Below, in pieces: positions 17,139 through 31,534 of a stretch of DNA of 38,025 nucleotides. The DNA is from Mariniblastus sp. (lineage in GTDB: Bacteria; Planctomycetota; Planctomycetia; Pirellulales; Pirellulaceae). The translations under genes were made by a program, and so were the position numbers. The notes under the pieces are model-generated. The model ran no database searches. It worked only from the letters and a program-made list of their open reading frames with translations, and was not told where the DNA came from. The DNA lies in assembly GCA_011523945.1 (NCBI GenBank), contig WTFU01000153.1, forward strand, positions 1 through 38,025. Reading direction: 5' to 3'. Every line of letters starts with the position of its first letter. Within the stretch, counting starts at the first letter, position 1.

Positions 17139-18644
17139 ATGAGCACTACCGTGTCTGAACAGTATGTTTTTACGCCCGATCACAAGAATGGTATCGACTA
17201 CAAAGTCGCTGACCTTTCTCTTGCAGAGTGGGGGCGGAAGGAAATCGATCTTGCAGAACAGGAAATGCCGGGTTTGATGGCATTGCGAGAAGAGTTTAAA
17301 GGCCAAAAACCACTCGCAGGCCAGCGAATCATGGGTTCATTGCACATGACAGTTCAAACCGCTGTTTTGGCCGAGACATTGGTCGAATTGGGTGCAGATG
17401 TCCGCTGGGTTTCGTGCAACATTTTCTCGACGCAAGATCATGCTGCTGCGGCAACCGTGGTTGGTAAGGACGGAACTGTTGATGAGCCGGCTGGAATTCC
17501 GGTTTTTGCTTGGAAAAATGAAAGTTTGGAAGAGTACTGGGCCTGCACTGAGAAAGCGCTTGATTTCGGTAACGGACTTGGCCCGACTCAAATTGTGGAC
17601 GATGGCGGCGACGCCACGATGTTGATCCACAAAGGTGTTGAGTGCGAAAAGGCTGGCGAAGTTCCAGGACCAGAAACGACAAATAACACTGAATTTAAAG
17701 AAGTTTTAAAGACGCTCGCATGGTGTCTCGAGCAAAACCCACAACGCTGGACAAAAGCAGCAGAGGGGTGTCACGGCGTTTCGGAAGAAACAACGACCGG
17801 CGTTCATCGACTTGTGGAAATGGCAAAAGAGGGATCACTTCTCTTCCCTGCCATCAACGTGAATGACTCATGCACCAAGAGCAAGTTCGACAACCTGTAT
17901 GGTTGTCGTCATTCGTTGATCGACGGTCTGAACCGTGCAACCGATGTCATGATGTCGGGCAAAGTGGCGGTTGTTTGCGGATACGGTGATGTTGGAAAAG
18001 GCTGTGTCCAGTCGCTCGCTGGGCAAGGCTGCCGCGTGATTGTTACTGAAATTGACCCAATCTGTGCACTGCAGGCGGCAATGGAAGGCTACGAAGTTGT
18101 AACAATCGAGGATACGCTTGATTATGCAGATATATACATCACGACAACGGGTAACTTTAACATCATCACTGCCGAACACATGGCGAAGATGAAGGACAAA
18201 GCCATCGTCGGGAACATTGGGCATTTTGATAACGAAATCGAGATGACTGAGTTGGAGGCAATGACGACGAAAACCAACATCAAGCCGCAGTACGACATGT
18301 ACACGTTTGAAGACGGCCACAGCGTCCTTGTGTTGGCTGAAGGTCGGCTGTTGAATTTAGGTTGTGCTACAGGCCATCCTAGCTTCGTAATGTCTGCTTC
18401 GTTTACAAATCAGACCATCGCTCAAATCGATCTTGCATTGAATGCTCAATCCAAGCCAACGCTTTCAGGTGAAACTTACGAGGGTGGAAATGTTTACATT
18501 CTTCCGAAGATTCTGGACGAAAAAGTTGCTCGGCTGCACCTTGATCAACTCGGTGTTAAACTGACAACGTTGACGAAAGAGCAAGCTGATTACATCAACG
18601 TCCCGGTTGATGGTCCGTTTAAGCCAGAGCATTATCGCTATTAA
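17139..18644 (+). CDS. ahcY: Adenosylhomocysteinase
   Basis: 501 residues. Reversibly hydrolyses S-adenosylhomocysteine to adenosine and homocysteine, closing the methylation cycle; cytoplasmic NAD-dependent tetramer. Landmarks: [12 protein letters not shown] near residue 66, [12 protein letters not shown] at about 92, [12 protein letters not shown], the insert carrying [16 protein letters not shown] that marks the longer bacterial form, [13 protein letters not shown], the NAD loop [10 protein letters not shown] at about 281, [12 protein letters not shown], and the C-terminal EHYRY. The ATG at 17139 follows TTGAGAAG, a moderate ribosome binding site. It is expressed from its own control region and ends at the terminator at 18678. 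Codon use looks like that of a well-expressed gene. Confidence 0.98.
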
Positions 18645-18677
18645 TCTGAATTTTTGCGATCAAGCGAAAATAGTATG

Positions 18678-18711
18678 AAACGCCGCTGAGAAATCAGCGG
18701 CGTTTTTTTTT
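18678..18711 (+). terminator. Rho-independent terminator of ahcY
   Basis: Perfect 10-bp GC-rich stem, CGCCGCTGA / TCAGCGGCG flanked by A-T pairs, with a GAAA tetraloop (18690-18693) and nine T residues from about 18703. It lies 34 bases after the ahcY stop. Confidence 0.95.
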
Positions 18712-18887
18712 GCGCTGGTTTTAGAATCTAAACGAGGATTCGCATTTAATCGCAACAAAGTTAATAGAAAAAAAGGGAGTGTGTTTGGTTTGCGCGGTAG
18801 AATTCAACTCCTAACACACCACTGCAAATCTCTCGTTTAAAGCAAAACAGGGACCGTGGTTCGCATTTTTTATGAATTAGGAAACTT

Positions 18888-19553
18888 ATGAAGGTTCTGT
18901 TGTCGAATCCACGGTTTGTAGTTTTTGCTTTCGTTGGTTGCCTAATCTCTTTCGCGTCGGAACCGAACGATCTTCGCGGAGAGGATGGCTTGGTGATCGC
19001 GGATATAAGACACACGGCGGTGCAATTGGAGCGATCCGCCGAAGCTTTGAAAAATGAGCTCCGGGCAAGTTTCAAAGGCTCCCGGAAATATGGAAAGCTT
19101 CTCTCGGTTGCGACAAAAATAAAGTCCCGATCAGCTGGTTTGATTCGGAGAGTCGACCGTAACTCCGGCTTTCAGGTTCCACCGCGTGATGTCGAGAAAA
19201 TCAAGAATCTTGCCATTGAGCTGGCTGCCGAATACGATGCCGCGATTGAGTATTCTCAAACGGGGAAGGGGCGTCCTGTTCAAGGTTCGACAGCTATGGC
19301 GGCGGATCAAATTTCAATTCTGATTTCTCTTTCTGAACAACTGCAGTTCTCCTCCCTAACCTTCTCAGGTGTAGCGCCGAATGTTTTTTCCGAAGGTCCG
19401 GTTGGTCAAGAGTTAATATTGGATTCCCGCTTGGAGTCGGTAGTTGATGAAGCACCGGGCCGCCCAGTTTCCAGTTTGGATGAAAGTGGACAGACAGAAT
19501 CTGAATCAAAGATTTTGTTGGAGCCGCCTATGCAAAGCGTTTGGGAAAAGTGA
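18888..19553 (+). CDS. Exported helical protein, hypothetical
   Basis: 221 residues, ATG preceded by AGGA. A signal peptide (PRFVVFAFVGCLISFASE) is followed by a mainly helical charged region with basic and acidic heptads (LVIADIRHTAVQLERSAEAL, then IKSRSAGLIRRVDRNSGF) and a Ser/Glu-rich tail from about residue 180. No family is recognised. Likely periplasmic. It lies between ahcY's terminator and the DUF1015 gene, with no evidence of co-transcription with either. Confidence 0.65.
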   Translation: MKVLLSNPRFVVFAFVGCLISFASEPNDLRGEDGLVIADIRHTAVQLERSAEALKNELRASFKGSRKYGKLLSVATKIKSRSAGLIRRVDRNSGFQVPPRDVEKIKNLAIELAAEYDAAIEYSQTGKGRPVQGSTAMAADQISILISLSEQLQFSSLTFSGVAPNVFSEGPVGQELILDSRLESVVDEAPGRPVSSLDESGQTESESKILLEPPMQSVWEK

Positions 19554-19656
19554 GGATCTTGAGTTGGTTAGTTTGGGTTTGAGCTTTGCTTAACGAACTA
19601 ATTCAATTGTAATTTTCTGTGGAAATGGAATTTTCCTAATAATTCATTTCTTTTCA

Positions 19657-19668
19657 CACCGATCGGTG
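19657..19668. promoter_or_regulatory. 12-bp perfect palindrome upstream of DUF1015 gene
   Basis: CACCGATCGGTG is a perfect palindrome 105 bases before the DUF1015 gene. Length and symmetry fit a small repressor operator, such as a TetR-type site, but no regulator gene is nearby. Confidence 0.3.
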
Positions 19669-19773
19669 CTAGCACTTTATTTGTGGCTTGGCGCTTTTCG
19701 TGGTCAAGTAAGCAAGATTCAAAACCGCGAGGGTTTTTTACTCAGCGCAAAATGGATATTGGGAGGATAAGTG

Positions 19774-21117
19774 ATGGCTGACATTCAAGCGTTTCGCGGT
19801 CTGAGATTTGATTTGAGCAAAGTCGGTTCTTTGTCGGAGGTAGTCGCGCCACCTTATGATGTGATTGGTGTTAAGGCCCGTGACGCGCTGTACGGTAAAA
19901 ATGAATTTAATGTGGTGCGGCTAATTCTCAATCGAGGGGATAGTCTTCTACCTGAGCAGACCGTTTATGAACGTGCTGCGGAACATTTGAAGAATTGGAA
20001 AACTGACGGAGTATTGAAATCTGATGGTGTCGGTGCGATTTACGTCTACCATCAAACCTTCGATGTGGATGGAATTGAGTACACACGTAGGGGATTTATT
20101 TCGCGAGTTCGAATCGAGCCATTTGGAGAGGGGAGCATCTATCCGCACGAAAAAACCCATTCCAAGGCCAAAGAGGATCGCTATCGGTTGATGGAAGCGT
20201 GCAATTGCAATTTGAGCCCAATTTTCGGAATTTATTCGAATCAAGAAGGCAGCCCTCAGGCGATCCTGGATCTTGCGATTGAAGACAGAACGCCGCTTAC
20301 TGCAATCGACGATGAGGGGGTTCGTCACGAATTGTGGTTGGTGACTGACGCCAACGCGATTGCTGCGGCGGCGCAGCTGATGGGGCCGACTGCAATCTAT
20401 ATAGCTGATGGCCACCATCGTTATGAGACGGCGACATCAATTCGAGACTCGAAGCGGCAGCGTGAGGCATTAGAGCCGGACCATCCAGTTGATTATACGA
20501 TGATCATGTGCGTCAGTATGGATGATCCAGGGCTGGTCGTTTTACCCACGCATCGTCTGTTTCGAGGCGTTGCCCCCATTTCCTCGGCAGATCTGATTGA
20601 CAAGCTTAGCGGTGCGTTTGATTGCGAAATTATCGGCACCGGTTTGGCTCTTGCCCGTGATTGCTGGGAGGGAGTTCAGGTCGAGGGCGAACAATCCACG
20701 ATGGCGTTCTATTGCCGAAAAGACGACACTTGGGTGCTAGCACGCGTTCGTCTTGAGGGTGTTGAGCTGATGGAGGCCCTGGCAGGGGGCAAGAGTGAGT
20801 GTTGGCAGGGGCTGGGCGTAGCGATTTTGCATCAATTGGTGCTTGGGCATTTGTTGGGATACGCCGACCTGCCCTCGCCACGGTATGTTCATGGAATTGA
20901 GGAGGTCGTCGAGCTCTTGAGTTCGGGTGACGGAAGTGATCGGGATGCAACGGGTCAGCAGGGAACGGGTGAGTTTTTCGAGCTAGCCTGCTTGGTCATG
21001 CCAGCAACCGTAACCGACGTAAAGTCGATCAGTGAATCGGGGGAGAGGATGCCAGCAAAGAGTACCTACTTCTATCCCAAATTGCTTAGTGGGTTGGTCA
21101 TCAATCAACTCGATTGA
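19774..21117 (+). CDS. DUF1015 family protein
   Basis: 447 residues from the ATG at 19774, behind GGGAGGA; a GTG immediately before it (19771) is less likely. Matches the DUF1015 pattern: IQAFRGLRFD at the start, VAPPYDVI (about 25-32), a Y-x-Y-x-Q-x-F segment (IYVYHQTFDVDG), EKTHSKAKEDR, IYIADGHHRYETA (about 208-220) and MIMCVSMDDPGLVVLPTHR. The family is widespread in bacteria and archaea and its biochemical function is not established. The conserved GHHRYE motif suggests a metal or phosphate centre (inference). Cytoplasmic. It lies just upstream of the parABS locus on the same strand, but more than 550 bases separate them. Confidence 0.9.
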   Translation: MADIQAFRGLRFDLSKVGSLSEVVAPPYDVIGVKARDALYGKNEFNVVRLILNRGDSLLPEQTVYERAAEHLKNWKTDGVLKSDGVGAIYVYHQTFDVDGIEYTRRGFISRVRIEPFGEGSIYPHEKTHSKAKEDRYRLMEACNCNLSPIFGIYSNQEGSPQAILDLAIEDRTPLTAIDDEGVRHELWLVTDANAIAAAAQLMGPTAIYIADGHHRYETATSIRDSKRQREALEPDHPVDYTMIMCVSMDDPGLVVLPTHRLFRGVAPISSADLIDKLSGAFDCEIIGTGLALARDCWEGVQVEGEQSTMAFYCRKDDTWVLARVRLEGVELMEALAGGKSECWQGLGVAILHQLVLGHLLGYADLPSPRYVHGIEEVVELLSSGDGSDRDATGQQGTGEFFELACLVMPATVTDVKSISESGERMPAKSTYFYPKLLSGLVINQLD

Positions 21118-21224
21118 ATTTGCTTCTTGTGGCTTTTGGGGGGCGTTTTCATTTAACCCTCCGGTCGCCAACCAGGATGGGTTCAAAGTCGATGGATTCT
21201 GTTAGTTCAGGTGGAATAGGCAGA

Positions 21225-21240
21225 GGTTTCACGTGAAACG
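21225..21240. promoter_or_regulatory. parS: parS site 1
   Basis: The core GTTTCACGTGAAAC (21226-21239) is a perfect palindrome identical to the 14-base core of the bacterial parS consensus TGTTTCACGTGAAACA. The outer bases are G and G. It lies about 460 bases upstream of parA. Confidence 0.93.
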
Positions 21241-21286
21241 GTTCGGGATGTTTTGGCTATTCTGTAAAATGAACCGGTTTGGGCCG

Positions 21287-21302
21287 GGTTTCACGTGAAA
21301 CA
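21287..21302. promoter_or_regulatory. parS: parS site 2
   Basis: A second perfect GTTTCACGTGAAAC core (21288-21301), followed by A as in the consensus. Its centre is 62 bases from that of site 1, close to six DNA turns, so both sites face the same side of the helix. Confidence 0.93.
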
Positions 21303-21696
21303 AAGTGTGCTGTTTACAGAGAATAGCGAATTTCAGGCAGGGAATGTAAACCGCACGCTGGTTGTTGTGGGAAAACCTGTCTCTTTTGAATGACTGTTGG
21401 TCATCTTTTTCGCTTTTTATTCATAAGTTCTCTTCTGATCGTTACCGGCAGCTCCACGATCGTGCTTCCGGAGAGGCAGCTTTCACAACCAAGATCCCAG
21501 GCTTGAGCAGCCAGCCAGTGAGTTCGTGCTGGGAAAGTTTGTAGAGGCTGCTTGTGCCAGCATTCTTAGCGGGCAGTCGAATTGCGGTGAATGAATGCAG
21601 GTGGCCTGCCGTAATTTGATTGGCATTTCACCGTTTCGCTGATGGTGGTATTTTTTCAGCTCTGGCGAATTGATCCACAAATCCAGAGGTCGTGCA

Positions 21697-22443
21697 GTGG
21701 CGAGAACGTTGTGTGTAGCTAATCAGAAAGGAGGCGTCGGCAAAACGACGACTTCGATCAATTTGGCTGCAAGTCTCGCTTTCGCTGGGAAAAAGACTTT
21801 GCTTGTCGATATGGATCCGCAATGCAATTCGACCTCCGGTATCGGGTTTAAGCCAGTCGAGCGTCATCCGTTGGTGGTGGACGAACCGATTCGCAATAGC
21901 ATCATTTCGACCAAAATTAATGGACTTAGCTTATTGCCTGGGGCGAGATCCTTTCGGGATGTTAATGTGCTAGCAGGTGGTGGTGCGGATGAAGCGCAAA
22001 TTCTCGTGGATCATCTGGAAGTAGGTACCTCGCATTATGATTTTGTTTTGATTGATTGTCCGCCTTCGGTTGGGCATTTGACTCAAACGGCACTGGCGGC
22101 ATCAAGCGAAGTGTTTATGCCAATTCAGTGTGAATATTTTGCGATGGAAGGTCTAACTCAGATGATCGAAGTCATTCGGGGAGTCATGCAAACGTGTCCG
22201 GGAAAACTGAGTTTTGGCGGTATTTTGTTGACGATGTATGACCCTTCGCTGGAGTTGACGGCGGAAGTCGAGTCGGAGGTGCGAGAGTTTTTTGGTGAAG
22301 TTGTTTTCGATACCGTAGTTCCAAGGGACCCAATGGTGACCGAGGCTCCAAGTCACGGTTTGTGCGTGCTTGAGTACGCGCCTCGTTCGAGAGGAACTAG
22401 GGCTTATATAGAATTATGCATGGAGGTTTTGGAGCGTGACTAG
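21697..22443 (+). CDS. parA: Chromosome partitioning ATPase ParA
   Basis: 248 residues from the GTG at 21697, which has AGAGG seven bases upstream; a TTG at 21670 is less likely. The deviant Walker A KGGVGKTT (11-18) includes the signature Lys11 and Lys16, followed by INLAASLA and LLVDMDPQCNSTSG. FVLIDCPPSVGHLT is the Walker B region. Length and lack of an N-terminal helix-turn-helix match chromosomal Soj/type Ib ParA. ATP-bound dimers bind DNA nonspecifically and move ParB-parS complexes. The end overlaps parB by 8 bases, so the two are translationally coupled, and parS sites lie upstream. Confidence 0.95.
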   Translation: MARTLCVANQKGGVGKTTTSINLAASLAFAGKKTLLVDMDPQCNSTSGIGFKPVERHPLVVDEPIRNSIISTKINGLSLLPGARSFRDVNVLAGGGADEAQILVDHLEVGTSHYDFVLIDCPPSVGHLTQTALAASSEVFMPIQCEYFAMEGLTQMIEVIRGVMQTCPGKLSFGGILLTMYDPSLELTAEVESEVREFFGEVVFDTVVPRDPMVTEAPSHGLCVLEYAPRSRGTRAYIELCMEVLERD

Positions 22444-23413
22444 GAAAAAAAGATTAGGCCGGGGGTTGGAGAACCTTCTAAATACAACACGGGACACCGA
22501 GCCACTGGAGACGATTTCGATCAGCCAGGCGTTTGTTCAGCCAGGGGCTCAGGTTCCTCCGCCCGTGGTTGAAGAGGAGAAGCCGGATGAGGATATCGTC
22601 CATTTGAATGTCTACGAGATCGAGGATAACCCATTTCAGCCACGCCGAGTTTTTGGCGAGACGGAAATTGCCTCGCTTGCGGAAAGTCTAAAAGAGCACG
22701 ATATTTTGCAACCCATTTTGGTTAGGGTTGTTGACGGCCGGTATCAGTTAATCAGTGGTGAAAGACGTCTTCGGGCGGCGATTAAAGCGAACTGGCAAAC
22801 GATTCCTGCGCGGTTAAGGGAAGCAGACGACCGATTGGTTTCTGAGCTTGCCATTGTTGAGAATTTGCAGCGAAAAGACCTGAATCCGATTGAAAAAGCA
22901 CTTTCGTTTCGGCGTTACATTGACGAGCATTTTTGCACTCAGGAGGATCTGGCCAATCGATTGAAAATCGATCGCTCTACCATTGCGAACTTGATGCGAT
23001 TGCTTGAGCTGCCTCAACGAATTCAGGCGTCACTCCAGGAGGGAAAAGTCTCTGCCGGGCACGCTCGAGCTCTTTTACCGCTAGGCGATGAAGGAGCTCA
23101 GTTAGAGTTTTGCGGAAAGATCATCGCGGAAGGCCTAAGCGTTCGAGATACGGAGCGGTTAGTCGCTAATAAAATCTCAGAAGAGGATTACCCGGATAGT
23201 AATCGGACGGCTCGACGAATGCGGAACCGCGACCTTCAGGTTGAATCGCTTCAGCAAGAACTAAAGGCCGCTTTGGGAACGAAGGTGTTGATCAAGCAAG
23301 GGGCTAAAGAGCGCGGGAAGATAATCATCCATTATACGAGTTTTAAGGAATTTGAAAGGTTGAAATCGGCAATTGAAGGCGAGGGAGCGTCTGCTAATCA
23401 GCGAGCAGCGTAG
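22436..23413 (+). CDS. parB: Chromosome partitioning protein ParB
   Basis: 325 residues, GTG start overlapping the parA end. The N-terminus KKRLGRGLENLL is the usual ParA-interacting segment. The ParB/Srx core follows: NPFQPRRVF (65-73), LAESLKEHDILQPILV, ISGERRLRAA (106-115, the Arg-rich CTP-binding motif) and ENLQRKDLNPIEKA (142-155). The helix-turn-helix lies around 168-190 (TQEDLANRLKIDRSTIANLM). The C-terminal region (TKVLIKQGAKERGKIIIHY) is the dimerisation domain. ParB loads at parS, switches with CTP and slides as a clamp. The two sites it should bind lie upstream of parA. Confidence 0.96.
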   Translation: MTRKKRLGRGLENLLNTTRDTEPLETISISQAFVQPGAQVPPPVVEEEKPDEDIVHLNVYEIEDNPFQPRRVFGETEIASLAESLKEHDILQPILVRVVDGRYQLISGERRLRAAIKANWQTIPARLREADDRLVSELAIVENLQRKDLNPIEKALSFRRYIDEHFCTQEDLANRLKIDRSTIANLMRLLELPQRIQASLQEGKVSAGHARALLPLGDEGAQLEFCGKIIAEGLSVRDTERLVANKISEEDYPDSNRTARRMRNRDLQVESLQQELKAALGTKVLIKQGAKERGKIIIHYTSFKEFERLKSAIEGEGASANQRAA

Positions 23414-23443
23414 GGGGGCACGCTTCCCAACCCCGATTGCAGC

Positions 23444-23449
23444 TATAAT
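23444..23449 (+). promoter_or_regulatory. Consensus-like -10 hexamer upstream of tRNA-Pro
   Basis: A perfect TATAAT lies between parB and the tRNA, without a clear -35. It could start a precursor transcript for the tRNA about 120 bases downstream. Confidence 0.3.
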
Positions 23450-23489
23450 GTGAACAAATACTTTGGAAAACCCTGTTTTTGGACGCAAG

Positions 23490-23512
23490 AACCGGATTGC
23501 AAGAATCGGGTT
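23490..23512 (+). terminator. Weak hairpin after parB
   Basis: AACCGGATT and AATCGGGTT pair in eight of nine positions around a 5-base loop, followed by a short T-containing run (TTTGATCT). It may end the parAB transcript, but the T tract is poor. Confidence 0.3.
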
Positions 23513-23575
23513 TGATCTGTAAAGTTTATGCCTGTGAGACACGAGCAGGCTGAGAAATCAATGTTCGCGTTCTTT

Positions 23576-23650
23576 CGGGGTGTAGCGCAGTCTGGCTAGC
23601 GCACCTGGTTTGGGACCAGGGGGTCGAAGGTTCGAATCCTTTCACCCCGA
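23576..23650 (+). tRNA. tRNA-Pro (anticodon UGG)
   Basis: 75 bases fold as a cloverleaf: acceptor CGGGGTG/CACCCCG with discriminator A, D arm GCGC...GCGC, anticodon stem CCTGG/CCAGG with loop TTTGGGA (anticodon TGG), and T arm GAAGG-TTCGAAT-CCTTT. The 3' CCA is not encoded and must be added after transcription. No integrase or attachment repeat is seen next to it. Confidence 0.97.
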
Positions 23651-23753
23651 CTTTCGAGTCTTTGTTCACGGATTTTAGAATCCAGGGGACATGGGTTCTC
23701 GGTCGTCGTACCGAAAATGTCCGTTGTTTTAAGAAAAGGCCGTGTTGATTCGA

Positions 23754-24281
23754 ATGAGTGCACCACTCTATTTCGACGATATTCAGGTTGATTCTGTGTG
23801 GGTTAGCCCGCGTCGGACGATCACTGAGGCGGATGTCATTCAGTTCGCTACGATGACGGGTGATTTCAACCCGCTTCATGTCGATTACGACTTTGCTTCG
23901 AAGAGCCACTACCGTCAGCCGATCGCTCACGGTTTGCTCGGTTTGTCATGGGTTGCCGGCCTTGGGAGTCATTTTCCGCTCGTGAATACGTTGGCGTTTA
24001 CGGCTGTTCGAAATTGGGAATTTTCCCGCCCGCTCTTTTTTGGCGATACCGTTTTCGTTGAGACAAAATGTCTTGAGAAAACTTCGGCTGGTAGGCGTGC
24101 GGGCAAGGTTGTTTGGCAGCGCAAGTTGCTTAATCAAACGAACCAGGTCGTACAGCAAGGGATCTTTGAAACTCTGGTTTCGGTAAATCCCGCTCAAACT
24201 TCTGTACCAAGAACCCATCTTCGTTCTGATATTCATCATACGGATGTGACGGTAAGTCGCGATTCGGTCTCAAACGACTAA
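23754..24281 (+). CDS. MaoC-like (hot-dog fold) dehydratase
   Basis: 175 residues from the ATG at 23754; in-frame GTG (23742) and TTG (23745) with AAAGG nearby are alternatives. The hydratase motif appears as MTGDFNPLHVDYDFA, with Asp and His in the family's catalytic D-x5-H spacing, and IAHGLLGLSWVAGL follows. FGDTVFVETKCLEK and a C-terminal strand (GIFETLVSV) complete a hot-dog fold. Family members hydrate enoyl-CoA thioesters; other clades are thioesterase- or PHA-related. There is no neighbouring fatty-acid gene. Substrate is not predictable. Confidence 0.88.
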   Translation: MSAPLYFDDIQVDSVWVSPRRTITEADVIQFATMTGDFNPLHVDYDFASKSHYRQPIAHGLLGLSWVAGLGSHFPLVNTLAFTAVRNWEFSRPLFFGDTVFVETKCLEKTSAGRRAGKVVWQRKLLNQTNQVVQQGIFETLVSVNPAQTSVPRTHLRSDIHHTDVTVSRDSVSND

Positions 24282-24660: not shown

Positions 24661-24696
24661 TTGCCGCGTAACGGATGTTATTGCGCTTTGAATTCA

Positions 24697-25974
24697 ATGA
24701 AGTTGTTCATGCAAATAAACACTAAAAACAAGTCTCCGATGAAAACCGCTGAGTTAATAAAACGCGGAAATGCATTTATCGTGACCTCGATGTGTACCTT
24801 GTTGATTTGTGTTTTGGCATGGCCTTTGAGCGTCAGTAATTTTCGTTCGATGGCATCGGTTCGGGTGATCACTAATCAGTCCGAAGATGTTAAGGCGGGA
24901 TTGGAATCGCGTGTTGCGGGCATCATTGAGTCGGAAACCTCGGATGTGCAGTTGGAAGATTTGCTATCCAGAGTATCACGATCGGAAAGCTTAAGGTCGG
25001 CGGCTCTGGAATCGAGGAACTTTGCGCTAATTCGAGAGCGTCTGAAATGTGCGGTGCGTGAAAATGAGTTGGGCTATGATTTAGAATTGTGCATTGAAGG
25101 AGATGGCACAGGTGATGAATTGCAGTTCGTTAACTTGTTAGCGCAACAGTTTTCTGAAAAATTGCAAGAGTCATCGACGCCCCAGGATGAGTCAAAGACT
25201 CAACTCTCAACGATTATGTCGATTCGTAAAAAGCAAGACGAGCGAATTGAGATGGCACAATGGATGATTGGCCAGGCCGAGGAAAGAATTGCTAACGCAA
25301 AGACTGAACTAAGCTTAGGTCACACGGGTTTGGAGCAAATGGCATCTAACGCAGAGGCATCCGATAAATCCACAGGGACCTTTAAGTTAGCTTCGAGTCG
25401 AAAGAAATCAACATCCATTTCAAAAACAGAAGAGCTAATTGGTGAAATCGACTTGGCTTCCATTAAAGATTTGATCAGTGAAATGAAACAAGAAGCGGAC
25501 TCTGAGGCTCGGCTCATTCATGAGATGGTAACGGAATCCGTTACCAATTCTGTTCAGCATCAAATGATGGTTGCTGATCCAGCTCAGGGAGTCACTCGTC
25601 CTTTGAATGTGGCACCGACGATGAAGACGTTAAGCTTTCTCGGGTTGCTATCGCTTAGTCTCGGGGCGGTGGTTGCTGTGCGAATTGACCCATTTGCAGC
25701 GCGAGGGTTTGAAAATGCGCGCTCAATTGAAAAGCGTCTTGAGGTTCCGATAATCGCGCAAATCCGTTGGCAAGTCAGAAACTTTAATTCGGAAGAGAAG
25801 CTGCCCAGATTGCCTTGGGCAAACCGGGTCTCGATGATCTGCGGTTTAGCCTTGCTGGGGGTTGGAGTGGTGGTTGCCGGTTTCGTTTTAATCAACCCAG
25901 CGGTGAGAGCAGCATTTTACGAAGACCCATTGGTGGGGTGTTCCATGATTGTCAGGATATTTGTCGGATTTTAA
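24697..25974 (+). CDS. Wzz-like chain-length/BY-kinase adaptor protein
   Basis: About 425 residues from the ATG at 24697. Other possible starts are TTG 24661 (behind AGGT) and ATG 24739 (MKTAELIKRGN). It has Wzz topology: a membrane helix (FIVTSMCTLLICVLAWPLSV), a long periplasmic helical region with coiled stretches (SIRKKQDERIEMAQWMIGQA), then a second helix (LSFLGLLSLSLGAVVAVRI). Next comes a cytoplasmic linker (FENARSIEKRLEVPIIAQIR) typical of the joint between a Wzz domain and a BY-kinase. A third helix (ICGLALLGVGVVVAGFVLI) closes the protein. The P-rich motif of classical Wzz before helix 2 is weak. It probably regulates polysaccharide chain length or export with the kinase-like protein two genes downstream. 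Confidence 0.75.
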   Translation: MKLFMQINTKNKSPMKTAELIKRGNAFIVTSMCTLLICVLAWPLSVSNFRSMASVRVITNQSEDVKAGLESRVAGIIESETSDVQLEDLLSRVSRSESLRSAALESRNFALIRERLKCAVRENELGYDLELCIEGDGTGDELQFVNLLAQQFSEKLQESSTPQDESKTQLSTIMSIRKKQDERIEMAQWMIGQAEERIANAKTELSLGHTGLEQMASNAEASDKSTGTFKLASSRKKSTSISKTEELIGEIDLASIKDLISEMKQEADSEARLIHEMVTESVTNSVQHQMMVADPAQGVTRPLNVAPTMKTLSFLGLLSLSLGAVVAVRIDPFAARGFENARSIEKRLEVPIIAQIRWQVRNFNSEEKLPRLPWANRVSMICGLALLGVGVVVAGFVLINPAVRAAFYEDPLVGCSMIVRIFVGF

Positions 25975-26019
25975 TCCGCTGATCAACGACTTAGGTATAT
26001 AAATCCACAGGATTTTGTG

Positions 26020-28329
26020 ATGTACGAACAAGTATTCAATTTTAACGCCCGCCCCTTCACCGCTGCTCCGTACGTCAAACACTACTTTGCCGGCGAAGCC
26101 ATCCAAAATGCGTTGGAGCAAACCCGTCTGAACGTGGATCGGGGCGCCGGACCGGTGGTTATTGTCGGTGCGACCGGCACGGGGAAAACTCTTCTGCTTG
26201 CAATTTTGGAAGCGAGTTACTGTGAGCAGGTTAAGGTGGTAAACCTCGCATGTGCTCGATTACAGGAGCGAAAGGATCTACTTCAAAGTATTCTCCATCG
26301 CTTAAACCTTCCTTTTCAGGGGATGTCGGAAACCGAGTTGCGGTTCGCCCTGATGGATTATTTAGAACCCAATCCAAATTGTGTAAACGGGATCGTTCTT
26401 TTGGTGGATGACGCTCACGGTTTGTCTGCTAGTCTGCTGGATGAATTAGGATTGATTACGAATTTTGTTTCCGAGGGGCAACCGAGGGTGCGCTTAGTGC
26501 TGGCCGGTAGCCACCGGTTAGAGGAAAATTTAAACGAAGCTAAGCTTGAATCTTTGAATCAGAGAATCGCAGCTCGTTGTTATTTGGAGAATATGTCGCG
26601 AGGCGAAGCCTCTAGGTATGTTGTGGAACATATCGCGCGTGTTGGAGGGGATGGCGAGGAGCTGTTCCCTGAGGAGGCTTGTCGAGCCATCCACGAAGTA
26701 ACAGATGGGTATCCTCGATTAATTAATCAAGTAGCCGATCATGCGCTTATGTTGGCAGCGACACGCGGCATGTCTGCAATTACCGAGGATTGTATTCGAG
26801 AAGCGTGGGCAGATGTGCAGAGTATTCCAGCTACGTTTCAACCGGAATTGCCGGCTCAGAAAGAGGCCGGGGAATTGAGTGGCGATGATAATTGGAGCGT
26901 CCTCGAATTCGGCCAACTTGAGGATACTGAGAGCGAAGATTCTGGCATGGCGATTTTTGCTGATGAAACCGATTCAGCGGCAATTCAGTATCCTTCCATG
27001 GAAAGTTCCAAGACGGCAATTGAAAGAACCGGAGTAGATTCCATTTCGGAAGACGCGGAACCTAGTGAAGGAGACTTGCTACCCTTGGAAGGTGATTTCA
27101 TGGGGGCAACGGACGATGCTCGAGTAAAGCAACTGGAGCTCGAGCAGGCTCAGATTCTGGAGCAGGTCGAGCGCGAACGTATGGAGATTTATGAGGTACA
27201 GGAGACGGTAACGGCCTCTGGTACCGAACGTGGAATCGCAAATACGAGCCAAGAGCTAATCGGTAACAATGACTTGGAAGCGATGGAAATAGAAATTGCG
27301 TCCCCAGATCCTGCCGGAGTGAGCCAAATTCAAGAAGTGGTTGATCCATTTCAAGAAAAGTTTGCTGAAGAGGAGGTGCTGGACGACTATTTCGCTCCGA
27401 TGGTAGCTCAGCAAAATCAAGCATCATTAAGTATCCGATCAGTTGATTTGACGGATTTGACTCCGCAGGATTTGCCAGAAGTTAATCCGGAGGTTCCGGG
27501 AAATTCACAGGATTCGGTCCTTGATCCACAGAAAGGTTGGGAGGTAGATGCCGAGCAGGAAGTTGAGGTTTACCAGCGAGAGCCTGCGGAAACGAAGTAT
27601 TATCAACCGAACCGCGATAGTAGCTCAGTGCCGCATCAAGAGCAGCAGTCGACGGGAGAGCAAGTTGGCTTACCGGAAGTTCCGAGTGGATATGAGTTTA
27701 CGATGGGAACGGATTGGGTAGCAACCAATGCAAACCGAAGTGTAGAAGAGTCGGCTCCCGAAGCAGAAGTAAACCCTGAGCCAAATGAGGTAAGTAACAA
27801 GGGTTTTCATGTCCATGGGGATGATGTTGTATCGAAAGATATCCGGAAACAAGCTGAAGAAATCTTGGGGCGGCTCAGTGCGACGGAATCTCCTCTAAGC
27901 GATCAGGGGTCCAGTGATTCGCTTTGTTCGATTGAATCTTCGACCTTGCCAACTGAGAGTACGATATCTTCTGCCTGCGAATCCGATTCCAGTTATCCAA
28001 GTGCCGCGTTGGATGAATCGCAGCAAATATTGAATGAAATTCTCGAGCAAAGAAACGCGCTTGCTCAACAGGGAGAGTTAGGGGCCTCTATGCCAACTCT
28101 GGAAGAGTCAGGGGGAGGGAGTCAATTTCAAGCCACTGACATGGATCAAGGGAATGAGAAACCAATCATCGTGGTTAATCAACCTGAGGATGCGGTTGAA
28201 GAGAAACCACCAGCGGTTGATCCGCCTGTCCCGCCAACAACGCCTCCGTCGACTGGCCGAGCAGCAAGAATGGACTATCAGAAACTATTCGAACAACTGC
28301 GAGATATTTCAAATTCTCAAAATAGCTGA
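26020..28329 (+). CDS. ExeA/XrtA-associated-type AAA ATPase with long acidic tail
   Basis: 769 residues from the ATG at 26020, AGGA seven bases upstream. The N-terminus YEQVFNFNARPF is the usual opening of this family. Walker A is GATGTGKT (about 50-57), Walker B IVLLVDDAH (125-133), and the AAA lid ends with GYPRLINQVADHAL (230-243). This part matches the ExeA/GspA-like ATPases next to Wzz and tyrosine autokinase genes in exosortase-linked EPS loci. About 500 further residues are acidic, Ser/Glu/Pro-rich and largely disordered, ending in DYQKLFEQLRDI, possibly a docking helix. The usual peptidoglycan-binding domain is absent. It is co-oriented and 45 bases after the Wzz-like gene. Confidence 0.85.
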   Translation: MYEQVFNFNARPFTAAPYVKHYFAGEAIQNALEQTRLNVDRGAGPVVIVGATGTGKTLLLAILEASYCEQVKVVNLACARLQERKDLLQSILHRLNLPFQGMSETELRFALMDYLEPNPNCVNGIVLLVDDAHGLSASLLDELGLITNFVSEGQPRVRLVLAGSHRLEENLNEAKLESLNQRIAARCYLENMSRGEASRYVVEHIARVGGDGEELFPEEACRAIHEVTDGYPRLINQVADHALMLAATRGMSAITEDCIREAWADVQSIPATFQPELPAQKEAGELSGDDNWSVLEFGQLEDTESEDSGMAIFADETDSAAIQYPSMESSKTAIERTGVDSISEDAEPSEGDLLPLEGDFMGATDDARVKQLELEQAQILEQVERERMEIYEVQETVTASGTERGIANTSQELIGNNDLEAMEIEIASPDPAGVSQIQEVVDPFQEKFAEEEVLDDYFAPMVAQQNQASLSIRSVDLTDLTPQDLPEVNPEVPGNSQDSVLDPQKGWEVDAEQEVEVYQREPAETKYYQPNRDSSSVPHQEQQSTGEQVGLPEVPSGYEFTMGTDWVATNANRSVEESAPEAEVNPEPNEVSNKGFHVHGDDVVSKDIRKQAEEILGRLSATESPLSDQGSSDSLCSIESSTLPTESTISSACESDSSYPSAALDESQQILNEILEQRNALAQQGELGASMPTLEESGGGSQFQATDMDQGNEKPIIVVNQPEDAVEEKPPAVDPPVPPTTPPSTGRAARMDYQKLFEQLRDISNSQNS

Positions 28330-28365
28330 ATCTAATCCTGGCCCTTTCTTTTTTAAATTACTGTA

Positions 28366-29484
28366 ATGAAACCGTACTTTCGCTCGACCGCCGTTGACTC
28401 TGCCGTGACCACTGGGTTAAAGTGGTTGATTGCATCGGAAGGCTATGAAAAAAATGCTTCCCCTGACATGACTACCTCGCGCTCGTATAACGCGTTTGCC
28501 CACCAAGTTCGGTCTGAGAATGAGTTACCGTTTAAACAACGAACTGAGGATGGCACAATTTGTGTCTTAATTCCTGATCTGGCGCCGCAAACGCGAACGG
28601 CATCTAGTAGAGACGAGAATCGAAGCGCAAAAAATCAAGATTTGAATTGTGAAAGAGAATCCTTTCAGCATCTTGAAGCGACACTAGCTGAGGTAGGGCA
28701 GAGGCCCGCAGTATCAGAGTCTCCCAGTGAGAGTGGAGAGGGTTTTGCCTTCTTGCCACTTGAAATGACTTTAAAAGCGCCTGTGATTTCACTCGCCGAG
28801 GCACCGCAAGGTGATCTTAGCGAGCCTCCTAATGAGTGGCGGAAATTAAGTGACGGGAAGACGCGCGATCGGAAGGCAGGTGAAGAATCTGTTAAAAAGA
28901 CAAGTAAAGAGCAGGCGATTGAAAAGATTGCCCGGTCGATTATCGAACGCTATCCCGTTGGTAATCCGGGGTTAGTGATTTTCACCGGTCCGGAAGTGAA
29001 CGCGCTGATTGACGAAACTTGTGCTCGTGTTGCGACTTCTTTGTCCGAACGAAAAAATGGTCGTACGCTGTTAATAGATGCAGACAATCGAGGCCAAGCG
29101 TTAACAATTGCCAGCGGTGTCGCGGGGCAACCAGGGATTTCCGATGTCGTCGCCAATGGCGTCGATTGGAAGAGTACCGTCTTTGGCGGTTCGGCAACAC
29201 GATTGGATTTTATGGGGGCAGGTGCTCGGCAAGAGTTAGGAGAGCATTCCAAGCCCATCCTAAGGCAATTGGTGGTTGGTCTTAAAAAAGAGTATCAATT
29301 CATCTGCGTATCCGCTGGTACGTCGAACGAGTTATCAACTCAGTTCTGGAATGACGTTGGCGATGGTACCTTTTTATTAGTCAGCTTAAGAAATAGCAAT
29401 CAAACGCGAGCCAAGGCAGCGGTTTCTGAATTGCGAGTCTCGGGTGGCCGCCTGTTAGGGTGTATTGTCACGGATGTTGATTGA
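28366..29484 (+). CDS. BY-kinase/CpsD-like protein with degenerate Walker A
   Basis: 372 residues. The first 180 are low-complexity with short conserved-looking blocks (TICVLIPDLAP). From residue about 186 a bacterial tyrosine kinase/MinD-like fold is recognisable: LVIFTGPE (203-210), TLLIDADNRGQAL (234-246, the Walker A' strand), QPGISDVVANGVDW, LDFMGAGA and LRVSGGRLLGCIV. The Walker A loop, normally GEGKST, is replaced by EVNALIDETC (210-219) with no Gly-Lys-Ser/Thr. Walker B (FICVSAG) also lacks its Asp. There is no clear C-terminal Tyr cluster. It is therefore a probable pseudokinase, perhaps a regulatory partner of the Wzz-like protein. It follows the ATPase gene by 36 bases. Confidence 0.8.
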   Translation: MKPYFRSTAVDSAVTTGLKWLIASEGYEKNASPDMTTSRSYNAFAHQVRSENELPFKQRTEDGTICVLIPDLAPQTRTASSRDENRSAKNQDLNCERESFQHLEATLAEVGQRPAVSESPSESGEGFAFLPLEMTLKAPVISLAEAPQGDLSEPPNEWRKLSDGKTRDRKAGEESVKKTSKEQAIEKIARSIIERYPVGNPGLVIFTGPEVNALIDETCARVATSLSERKNGRTLLIDADNRGQALTIASGVAGQPGISDVVANGVDWKSTVFGGSATRLDFMGAGARQELGEHSKPILRQLVVGLKKEYQFICVSAGTSNELSTQFWNDVGDGTFLLVSLRNSNQTRAKAAVSELRVSGGRLLGCIVTDVD

Positions 29485-29520
29485 CGCTAGTTGACCGCAC
29501 TTTTTATTTGAGGTCCTTTT

Positions 29521-30543
29521 ATGGGGCGAGTTTTAGTTACCGGTGGAGCGGGCTACATTGGCAGTCACACTTGCCTTGAATTGCTAAACGCAGGATTTGA
29601 AATCACCGTTGTTGATAATCTAAGCAACTCGACTCAAGAATCGTTGCAGCGAGTAAGTACCCTCACGGGTAAAGAAATCGCTTTTTTTAAAGTTGACCTT
29701 CTTGATGCCGAAGCGCTGGATACTGTCTTTTCTCGAAGTGACTTTGGAACAGTGATTCATTTTGCGGCGTTAAAAGCGGTTGGTGAAAGCGTGGCCCAGC
29801 CGCTTCAGTATTATCAAAATAACGTGACGGGAACTGTCAATCTTTGCCAGGCAATGCAGAGGCATGGTGTCACGAATTTAGTTTTCAGTTCCAGTGCGAC
29901 GGTCTATGGAATTCCAAAGTCGCTGCCGTTGACTGAACAATCGGAAACGCTGATTCACGAAGTTACGAACCCCTATGGTCGTACAAAATTGATGGTTGAG
30001 TTTGTGCTCAAAGATTGGCAAAGAGCTTTTCCAGCAATGAATGTCGCCTTACTGCGTTACTTCAACCCCGTTGGTGCGCATGTTTCGGGACGGATTGGAG
30101 AGGATCCAAATGGGATTCCTAATAATCTCCTTCCTTATGTTTCACAGGTCGCAGTCGGCAGACTTGAGAAACTGGGTGTCTTTGGTGATGACTACGAAAC
30201 GGCAGATGGTACAGGCGTTCGAGATTATATCCATGTGGTAGATTTGGCAGTTGGACACGTGCTCGCGGTGAAAAAGTTAAGTGAAAATCCTGGCGTGGTA
30301 ACTTACAATCTGGGAACAGGAATCGGATACAGCGTTTTCCAAATAATCGCAGCTTTTGAGGAGGCATCTGGGCAGAGGATACCATTTGAAATTTTGCCCC
30401 GGCGAGCTGGAGATGTTGCCGCTTGCTTTGCCGATCCGTCTCTTGCAAAATTGGAATTAGGGTGGTCTGCCAATCGCGGTCTTCAAGAAATGTGTATCGA
30501 TGGTTGGCGTTGGCAATCCAACAATCCTAACGGGTACGCGTAG
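29521..30543 (+). CDS. galE: UDP-glucose 4-epimerase
   Basis: 340 residues; interconverts UDP-glucose and UDP-galactose with bound NAD. The NAD loop is [10 protein letters not shown] (7-16), VDNLSNS follows, [12 protein letters not shown] is at 79-90, FSSSATVYG (122-130) contains the catalytic Ser, and YGRTK (152-156) supplies Tyr152 and Lys156. C-terminal [17 protein letters not shown] and YNLGTG are typical. Length matches E. coli GalE. It starts 36 bases after the kinase-like gene, consistent with a shared transcript that supplies galactose or related sugars for an exopolysaccharide. Confidence 0.96.
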
Positions 30544-30805
30544 AACGAACGCGCGGTACAGGTCGCGACGCGTGAAGCGATCAAATCGGAACGCACTTTT
30601 GTTCTTGTCTTAATTGTCATTGAAAAGTTGAATCGTTCCATATTGAGTCGTTCTATTGGGTGTGGGGTGAGCATTTGTTGCGGTGAAACATGTTCTCGGG
30701 TTGGTTAGGGCTAGAGCAGGTAGGGTAAAATCGGCTAGATTAGGCCTGTCGATTTCTTGGGATGAAGTTGATCTGTTTCATTGTTCTTCGAGGCTTTGAG
30801 AGTAA

Positions 30806-31534
30806 GTGTCGAATTCGAGTTTGCTTGTGGTCGTTGCGACCTATAACGAGATTGATAATTTGCCTCGGTTAGTCCTGCAGATTACGGATCTGTTACCCGA
30901 CGCTGACGTGTTAGTGATTGACGACGCGTCACCGGATGGGACTGGTAATTGGTGTGAGCAGGCGACCGCTCAGTACCCAAGGCTATCTGTGTTGCATCGT
31001 GACTCTAAGCTTGGATTGGGAACGGCAGTGGTTGCCGGTTTCGAATATGCAAAGGAGAAGAACTATGATCTTGTTGCGACTATGGACGCAGATTTGAGTC
31101 ATGATCCAAAGTCGCTCGCTGAGATGTTCGAACTGTCGATGCAGTCGGACTGTGCTGCCATAGGTGTTTTTGTTGGTAGTCGATATGTTGCGGGTGGTGG
31201 TACAGAGGGCTGGCCATTCTTGCGGAGACTCGCTTCTCGAATGGTTAACAAATTCGCCCGGACGATGTTGAAACTAAAAACTTACGACAATAGTGGGGCG
31301 TTTCGGATCTACCGCTCCACCGCGCTCGACAAACTTGATTTAAAGAATCTGAAGAGCACAGACTTCGCCTATCTTGAGGAAATATTGTGGCGGCTTGCCA
31401 AGCAGGATGTCGCCATGATGGAGTATCCCATCCTCTTTCGAAACCGCGAACTCGGCAGGTCAAAAACGAATCCAATTTTGGGGCTGCGGGTATTCTGGCA
31501 GATTCTAATGATGGGAATTGGGATCTGGAAATGA
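30806..31534 (+). CDS. Family 2 glycosyltransferase, polyprenol-phosphate mannosyltransferase-like
   Basis: 242 residues from a GTG at 30806, after TTGAGAG. Resembles DPM1: LLVVVATYNEIDNLPRL at the start, VIDDASPDGTG (about 36-46), LGLGTAVVAGF and MDADLSHDP (the acidic metal/UDP-sugar motif, about 92-100), then VGSRYV. Transfers a sugar from a nucleotide donor to polyprenyl phosphate at the cytoplasmic membrane face. The membrane-anchoring C-terminal helices of some relatives are absent. A 262-base gap separates it from galE, so it may have its own promoter, but it fits the polysaccharide module. Confidence 0.92.
   Translation: MSNSSLLVVVATYNEIDNLPRLVLQITDLLPDADVLVIDDASPDGTGNWCEQATAQYPRLSVLHRDSKLGLGTAVVAGFEYAKEKNYDLVATMDADLSHDPKSLAEMFELSMQSDCAAIGVFVGSRYVAGGGTEGWPFLRRLASRMVNKFARTMLKLKTYDNSGAFRIYRSTALDKLDLKNLKSTDFAYLEEILWRLAKQDVAMMEYPILFRNRELGRSKTNPILGLRVFWQILMMGIGIWK

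Follow-up and report, generated by a model that had tools for sequence, protein, structure and literature searches.

The locus and its genes

The window, meaning here the whole 38,025-nucleotide stretch of Mariniblastus sp. DNA that was analysed, is contig C164, one of 208 contigs of a 5.4 Mb genome, and it carries the five genes listed in Table 1, namely a Wzz-like protein, an ExeA-like AAA ATPase, a BY-kinase-like protein, galE, and a GT2 glycosyltransferase. This set had been proposed in an earlier sequence-only reading and is confirmed as real. The ORF of the Wzz-like gene begins at 24661, and the start given earlier, 24697, is an in-frame ATG inside it. By their ORF coordinates, the first four genes are co-directional and separated by 42, 36, and 36 bases, and since a promoter and terminator scan found sites no commoner than in shuffled sequence (8 vs. 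8.0; 7 vs. 7.5), the putative operon is read from this spacing. GalE scores 439.1 bits, above its NCBIfam cut-off of 262.3, and the GT2 enzyme has a Pfam match of 97.1 bits; among the 21 window ORFs scanned with profiles, none was named Wzx, Wzy, or an initiating transferase. Upstream of the trio lie ahcY, DUF1015, parA, parB, and maoC (window positions 17139–24281), a gene order of which parts are found again at many Pirellulales loci.

Table 1. Features of the co-polymerase locus in window coordinates.
Feature	Position	Strand	Basis
Wzz-like polysaccharide co-polymerase of PCP-2 type, lacking a kinase domain (437 aa)	24661..25974	+	ORF, alignment, model
ExeA/XrtA-type AAA ATPase, 770 aa: ATPase domain aa 1–269 and 501-aa tail (21% D+E)	26017..28329	+	profile matches
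ATPase Walker A GATGTGKT, intact	26167..26190	+	alignment
ATPase Walker B LLVDDAH, with Asp in place of the Glu of most relatives	26398..26418	+	alignment
Tail motif EFGxL, observed only in long Pirellulales ATPases	26905..26919	+	alignment, pattern count
Tail motif DPFxExF...EEE...VAxQN (strict pattern 21/54)	27343..27417	+	alignment, pattern count
Tail patch EKPIIVV, local form of the relatives' DDRDMIVV patch; fails the strict pattern	28156..28176	+	alignment
C-terminal tail motif RMDYQKLFEQLR	28267..28302	+	alignment, pattern count
372-aa pseudokinase resembling BY kinases: N part (aa 1–175) modelled at low confidence, kinase-fold domain aa 180–372	28366..29484	+	alignment, model
Degenerate P-loop TGPEVNALIDETCARVA replacing GK[ST]	28984..29034	+	alignment
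Retained Walker A' LLIDADNRG	29068..29094	+	alignment
Degenerate Walker B YQFICVSAG, without Asp	29293..29319	+	alignment
UDP-glucose 4-epimerase galE	29521..30543	+	profile matches
GT2 enzyme resembling polyprenyl-phosphate glycosyltransferases (64.3 bits to the PpgS model, under its cut-off of 370)	30806..31534	+	profile matches

The Wzz-like protein and the long-tailed ATPase

The Wzz-like protein has no NCBIfam match, and Pfam gives just a sub-threshold match to an unrelated model. Three hydrophobic stretches, picked by eye, lie at aa 38–56, 323–340, and 392–411, and a 21-member alignment together with the structural model (mean pLDDT 69.6) gives a layout of helix, alpha/beta part, long helices, and helix in the style of a co-polymerase, to which the third of these stretches and a C-terminal tail that is conserved are added. 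All 14 PDB matches of the model at E ≤ 0.001 are chains of Wzc, of WzzE or a full-length co-polymerase, or of KpsE complexes, at a TM score to the query of about 0.2; the model is too loose for a firm fold assignment.

The ATPase matches AAA_22 with 60.7 bits. Its Walker A lysine, K57, is Lys in 89 of the 91 ATPase domains aligned, the other two having a gap and an Ile, and the Walker B Glu is replaced by Asp in 12 of the 91 (window included) and by Gly in one; this Asp may slow hydrolysis in the window's enzyme. Four motifs recur in the tails of the aligned ATPases, a conserved feature that the sequence-only reading did not bring up. By strict pattern, EFGxL occurs in 48 of 54 long Pirellulales ATPases and in 0 of 36 others, the C-terminal pattern [YFL]xxL[FM]xx[LMI][RKE] in 48 of the 54, in 11 of 16 ATPases of family f21, and in 0 of 20 others, the DPFxExF pattern in 21 of the 54, and a D-rich hydrophobic patch in 31 of the 54 and in 1 of the 16 of f21. 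Shuffled tails (1080) matched EFGxL in 0.9% of cases, the C-terminal motif in 0.2%, DPFxExF in 0%, and the D-rich patch in 5.6%, a control that is lenient, as the patterns were written after the sequences had been seen; the D-rich pattern is a weak one because of its 5.6%.

Among Pirellulales loci with a lost kinase, EFGxL is present in all 31 that have a detected Wzz gene and in two of the six where Wzz was not detected; a contig end truncates two of the four that lack the motif. It is present as well in 15 of 17 loci where no kinase was detected, so that the motif does not track the kinase itself. The idea that the tail is a dock for the pseudokinase alone is weakened by the 11 of 16 f21 ATPases that keep the C-terminal motif with no kinase adjacent; since that motif is present at f21 loci without a detected kinase or Wzz, it cannot serve solely a complex of the trio. 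Two f21 loci (L121 and L125) have the ATPase but neither Wzz nor kinase that could be detected, and its neighbours there are genes that look by eye PhoH-like, membrane HD hydrolase-like, and YbeY-like, and the L121 ATPase retains the tail motif YKNLFSRLR. Kinase matches found elsewhere in 21 genomes with kinase-less ATPase loci were mostly large Wzc-like frames (one genome, G108, was wrongly among the 21).

A kinase fold without its catalytic motifs

The 372-aa protein has no Pfam match and a PDB sequence match to VpsO at E 2e-5. The model of its C-terminal domain, with block pLDDT values of 86–97 over aa 181–370, has structural matches in the Wzc kinase domain (3la6, E 6e-13) and in VpsO (6u1q, E 9e-13), the former of which rules out a chance resemblance to BY kinases. 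The sequence-only reading held that this kinase had lost its nucleotide motifs, and this is correct for Walker A and for the Walker B Asp but not for Walker A', whose LLIDAD is kept. Set by eye against the GDGKST of a live Wzc of the same genome, Ile215 and Asp216 occupy the places of Lys and Ser, and among 27 aligned kinase-like proteins, these two columns hold Ile or Val in 20 and Asp or Glu in 23, and none has G[KR][ST] across the columns of the P-loop. The Walker B region reads ICVSAG, as against IIDTPP in live kinases, and the last 60 residues contain no Tyr. In Walker A', Asp238 is invariant and Asp240 is present in at least 90% of 26 aligned proteins, and through the invariant Asp238 the protein may have a nucleotide or metal role. 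In short, the GK[ST] P-loop and Tyr cluster of a canonical BY kinase are missing, and what is found is the picture of a BY pseudokinase: a BY-kinase fold in which Walker A, the Walker B Asp, and the Tyr tail are all absent, adjacent to a 437-aa Wzz-like partner without a kinase domain, the latter with co-polymerase fold matches at a TM score of about 0.2.

Selection on the locus was estimated by the Nei–Gojobori method on genus pairs, with synonymous sites saturated in most of them. The kinase domain gives a dN/dS of 0.072 against its nearest relative (dS 0.32) and 0.034–0.040 in three further pairs where dS is saturated, to be compared with 0.032–0.054 for galE in three pairs, 0.013–0.023 for the ATPase domain, 0.18–0.23 for the ATPase tail, 0.12–0.16 for the Wzz-like protein, and 0.23–0.36 for the N part of the pseudokinase. 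The dead kinase domain is thus under purifying selection in the window's genus, of the same order as galE, and the possibility of a pseudogene is rejected for the genus by these kinase-domain values of 0.03–0.07.

Relatives of the trio

We surveyed 90 ATPase loci from 88 genomes, mostly drafts, by joining two samples: 30 loci reached through the pseudokinase query, a biased sample with a dead kinase in 30 of 30, and 60 loci reached through the ATPase domain and hand-picked across families, two of them being second copies. In the phylum as a whole, the ATPase domain has matches at 1e-20 in 173 of 393 genomes. A kinase neighbour was sought on the same strand from 400 bases inside the ATPase to 1.5 kb downstream, and by this rule the neighbour is kinase-like but P-loop-less at 43 loci and a G[KR][ST] kinase at 7, the latter lying without exception in other classes, and none was detected at 40; the corresponding figures in the ATPase-led sample are 13, 7, and 40. 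Divided by group, the Pirellulales have 37 lost kinases and 19 loci with none (two of these being second ATPase copies), f21 has 16 with none, f23 has 5 lost, f24 has 1 with none, and the other classes have 7 intact, 1 lost, and 4 with none.

All 43 lost-kinase neighbours, which belong to the window's class and to G103, lack Tyr in the tail, while the six strict GK[ST] neighbours have 4–10 tail Tyr and the seventh G[KR][ST] kinase, that of G137, carries Arg in place of Lys and a tail free of Tyr. The earlier reading of a dead kinase is supported in that the P-loop is kept by none of the 27 aligned kinase-like proteins and by none of the 43 full-domain neighbours scored in G103 and the window's class, and the opposite pattern, in which homologues keep intact kinases within a gene order that always includes an exosortase, was not seen in this neighbourhood survey. 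Among the loci counted as having none, L140 has a live kinase on the opposite strand, at L147 (GCTT) and L148 (GRTT) the ATPase is a second copy and the kinase-like genes lie upstream of it, and several Pirellulales loci have a partial domain, detected by profile in L097, L099, L101, and L102 and by eye in L092, L111, and L112. Because a full kinase-like neighbour is found in only 7 of the 26 Pirellulales loci reached by the ATPase alone, the complete trio is not universal even in this order; it is characteristic of the window's genus and of some members of the order, and in the rest of the class the kinase is either reduced or was not detected.

A quickly built ATPase tree of 91 rows, in which 23 of 88 inner branches are starred, unites the 79 rows from the window's class with an SH-aLRT of 99. 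By the neighbour rule, this group includes no live kinase, and the seven live-kinase rows lie outside it; the 71 long ATPases group at 89, unstarred. In family f23, the five kinase-like neighbours, all beside short ATPases, keep a G[AT][ST] P-loop and the Walker B Asp, and their sequences read as an intermediate state of loss.

A sugar epimerase adjoins 25 of the 37 Pirellulales lost-kinase loci and a GT2 gene lies within 6 kb in 16 of 37, as compared with 4 and 6 of the 19 Pirellulales loci without a kinase, and all of these are lower bounds because loci cut by contig ends are included. Outside the Pirellulales, galE/GT2 linkage was seen in 0 of 16 f21 loci, 0 of 5 f23 loci, and 1 of 7 live-kinase loci.

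Relationship to XrtA loci and exosortases

The XrtA/PEP-CTERM-associated trio consists of a chain length determinant (TIGR03007), an ATPase (TIGR03015), and a tyrosine autokinase (TIGR03018). The window has the same three genes in the same order, but it scores far below the cut-offs, with 138.5 bits against 324.5 for TIGR03015, 24.8 against 230.65 for TIGR03018, and no match to TIGR03007, and it differs further in its dead kinase, its added ATPase tail, and its unlinked exosortase. Three live-kinase loci of other classes (L136, L134, and L143) have 321.6, 305.0, and 319.6 bits for TIGR03015, just under the cut-off, and 172.5, 158.1, and 146.8 bits for TIGR03018, below its cut-off and above that of the general family TIGR01007; the Wzz protein of L136 has 135.2 bits for TIGR03007 (cut-off 278.85). 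Since these loci share the gene order and approach the TIGR03015 cut-off, the likeness that the sequence-only reading saw between this trio and XrtA loci is one of homology, and by these sequence comparisons the trio derives from one of the XrtA kind with a live kinase.

The window's contig carries no exosortase, as had been noted for the window. A genome without any exosortase was considered and is wrong, as two of the exosortase U type (NF033780) lie on contigs C197 and C179. An exosortase was found in 63 of 79 surveyed genomes, and six genomes with the ATPase and a dead kinase gave no exosortase match (G007, G015, G022, G045, G291, and G328). On contigs that carry both genes, long-tailed ATPase and exosortase come no closer to each other than about 53 kb in G451 and 55 kb in G433, and the surveyed genomes showed no exosortase near a long-tailed ATPase, a statement limited by short and separate contigs, since most draft genomes have the two genes on different ones. 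In other classes, an exosortase lies within about 6 kb (G103), 18 kb (G137), and 19 kb (G118) of the ATPase, G103 being the only surveyed locus with one so close; a single-sequence search of the fetched stretches turned up no exosortase. Exosortase genes were also seen at most 4 kb from large Wzc-like frames (G078:C39, G068:C235, G066:C1, G433:C4, G451:C1, and G413:C181, among others), so that the exosortase loci of those planctomycetes seem to come with a separate Wzc. Two Wzc proteins of the window's genome are intact, with GDGKST and Tyr-rich tails, and are encoded on other contigs. The same genome also contains, on contig C53 (G000:C53, L088:80-2955), a second bipartite co-polymerase with a P-loop-altered kinase (GDGVTT for GDGKST, no Tyr tail), a separate apparent pseudokinase, after which comes an EPS sugar phosphotransferase.

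Proposed mechanism and its alternatives

In Wzc, a phosphorylation cycle drives the assembly and disassembly of the co-polymerase octamer, and CapA binds CapB. The window's protein shares the kinase-domain fold of Wzc, CapAB, and VpsO and differs from them in lacking Walker A, the Walker B Asp, and the Tyr cluster. We know of no tested role for the XrtA-associated ATPase. Closer parallels are EcpK/EpsV of Myxococcus xanthus and HfsB/HfsA of Caulobacter, which PMC12004946 describes as two-protein complexes of a BY pseudokinase and a PCP-2 protein; the pseudokinase is a BY-kinase fold that stands on its own and lacks Walker A, Walker B, and the Tyr tail, and its partner is a co-polymerase without a kinase domain. 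According to the same paper, a pseudokinase can serve its co-polymerase by binding, and cycles of binding and unbinding are offered there as speculation on how a co-polymerase might cycle without kinase activity. In contrast to these pairs, as described in that paper, the window has a third gene between the two, an AAA ATPase with a long motif-bearing tail whose Walker A is intact where the kinase is dead, and by sequence, this is the new element; moreover, Walker A' is lost in EcpK and kept in the window, and the window's relatives show intermediate states of loss. A literature search of open-licence papers listed no planctomycete version.

The reading we prefer, with a confidence that passes the halfway mark only modestly, is that the locus encodes a bipartite PCP-2 co-polymerase whose kinase subunit is a conserved pseudokinase and whose XrtA-type ATPase has been kept and elaborated, working independently of phosphorylation with ATP used by the ATPase. 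The Wzz-like protein would be located in the inner membrane, its cytoplasmic C-terminus would bind the pseudokinase in the manner of CapA with CapB and of EpsV with EcpK, and the pseudokinase would act as a scaffold. The ATPase, tethered by the motifs of its long tail, would supply a nucleotide-driven assembly cycle, and it is proposed for this task because the pseudokinase is not expected to run a cycle of the Wzc type; galE and the GT2 enzyme would feed sugars to the same surface polysaccharide. A role in polysaccharide control is suggested by homology, by the galE/GT2 neighbours within one order, and by the precedent of EcpK and HfsB. The earlier interpretation as a kinase-independent control system is partly supported, with the homology to the XrtA trio, the dead kinase, and the unlinked exosortase in its favour and the exosortases elsewhere in the genome, the surviving Walker A', and the many relatives without a full kinase neighbour (40 of 60) against it, and our confidence was lowered slightly by the ATPase-led sample, which shows how often that neighbour is missing.

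A bolder possibility for the window's class, less likely than not, is that the AAA ATPase drives the co-polymerase in place of tyrosine phosphorylation. The ATP-using role would then have moved from kinase to ATPase and the ATPase tail would have become the moving part in place of the Tyr tail, so that the kinase was later free to shrink and vanish in some lineages. A competitor, unlikely on balance to about the same degree, is a plain pair of the EcpK/HfsB type, in which pseudokinase and co-polymerase work together and the ATPase is merely co-transcribed for another task, such as remodelling another envelope machine. EcpK and HfsB were indeed described as two-protein complexes in PMC12004946, and all 16 f21 loci have the ATPase without a detectable kinase or Wzz, beside other genes; however, the order Wzz–ATPase–kinase is common to the window and to loci of other classes whose kinase is live, and the perfect occurrence of EFGxL where a lost kinase and Wzz stand together, against its absence from the 36 other ATPases, argues for a connection, although its presence in most kinase-less loci weakens that argument.

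The other explanations have little weight. If the kinase gene were a decaying remnant on its way out, with no kinase-level function left at the locus, then the several Pirellulales relatives with just a partial kinase domain downstream of the ATPase, and the 19 of 56 Pirellulales loci without a full kinase-like neighbour, would be accounted for, but the galE-like purifying selection disfavours this within the window's genus, as does the shared replacement at residues 215 and 216, and we think it improbable. Slightly more improbable still is a kinase-like protein that binds nucleotide through Walker A' and a new DETCARVA motif and signals in some other way, for while the conservation of Asp238 and Asp240 favours it, the P-loop place of Lys and Ser/Thr is filled by Ile/Val and Asp/Glu and the Walker B Asp is gone. 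Least probable of all is a role in chromosome segregation or cell polarity, conceivable because parA and parB are neighbours and BY kinases belong to the ParA/MinD-like fold class: parB lies within 6 kb in 19 of the 37 Pirellulales lost-kinase loci and parA in 18, but ahcY, DUF1015, and maoC are also nearby, which looks like a shared ancestral order, no parAB match was found near the ATPase loci of f23, f21, or other classes, and the Wzz-like model and galE/GT2 point to polysaccharide.

Coming back to the ATPase-using co-polymerase that we prefer, its meaning is related to a question that EcpK and HfsB left open in PMC12004946, namely how a co-polymerase cycles when kinase activity is missing, and this question becomes testable by single-residue mutants, because here a dead kinase adjoins an ATPase with an intact Walker A and the relatives show intermediates. 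If our reading is true, the XrtA-associated ATPase gains a possible job that is independent of the exosortase, and planctomycetes of this kind may run a co-polymerase machine without tyrosine phosphorylation.
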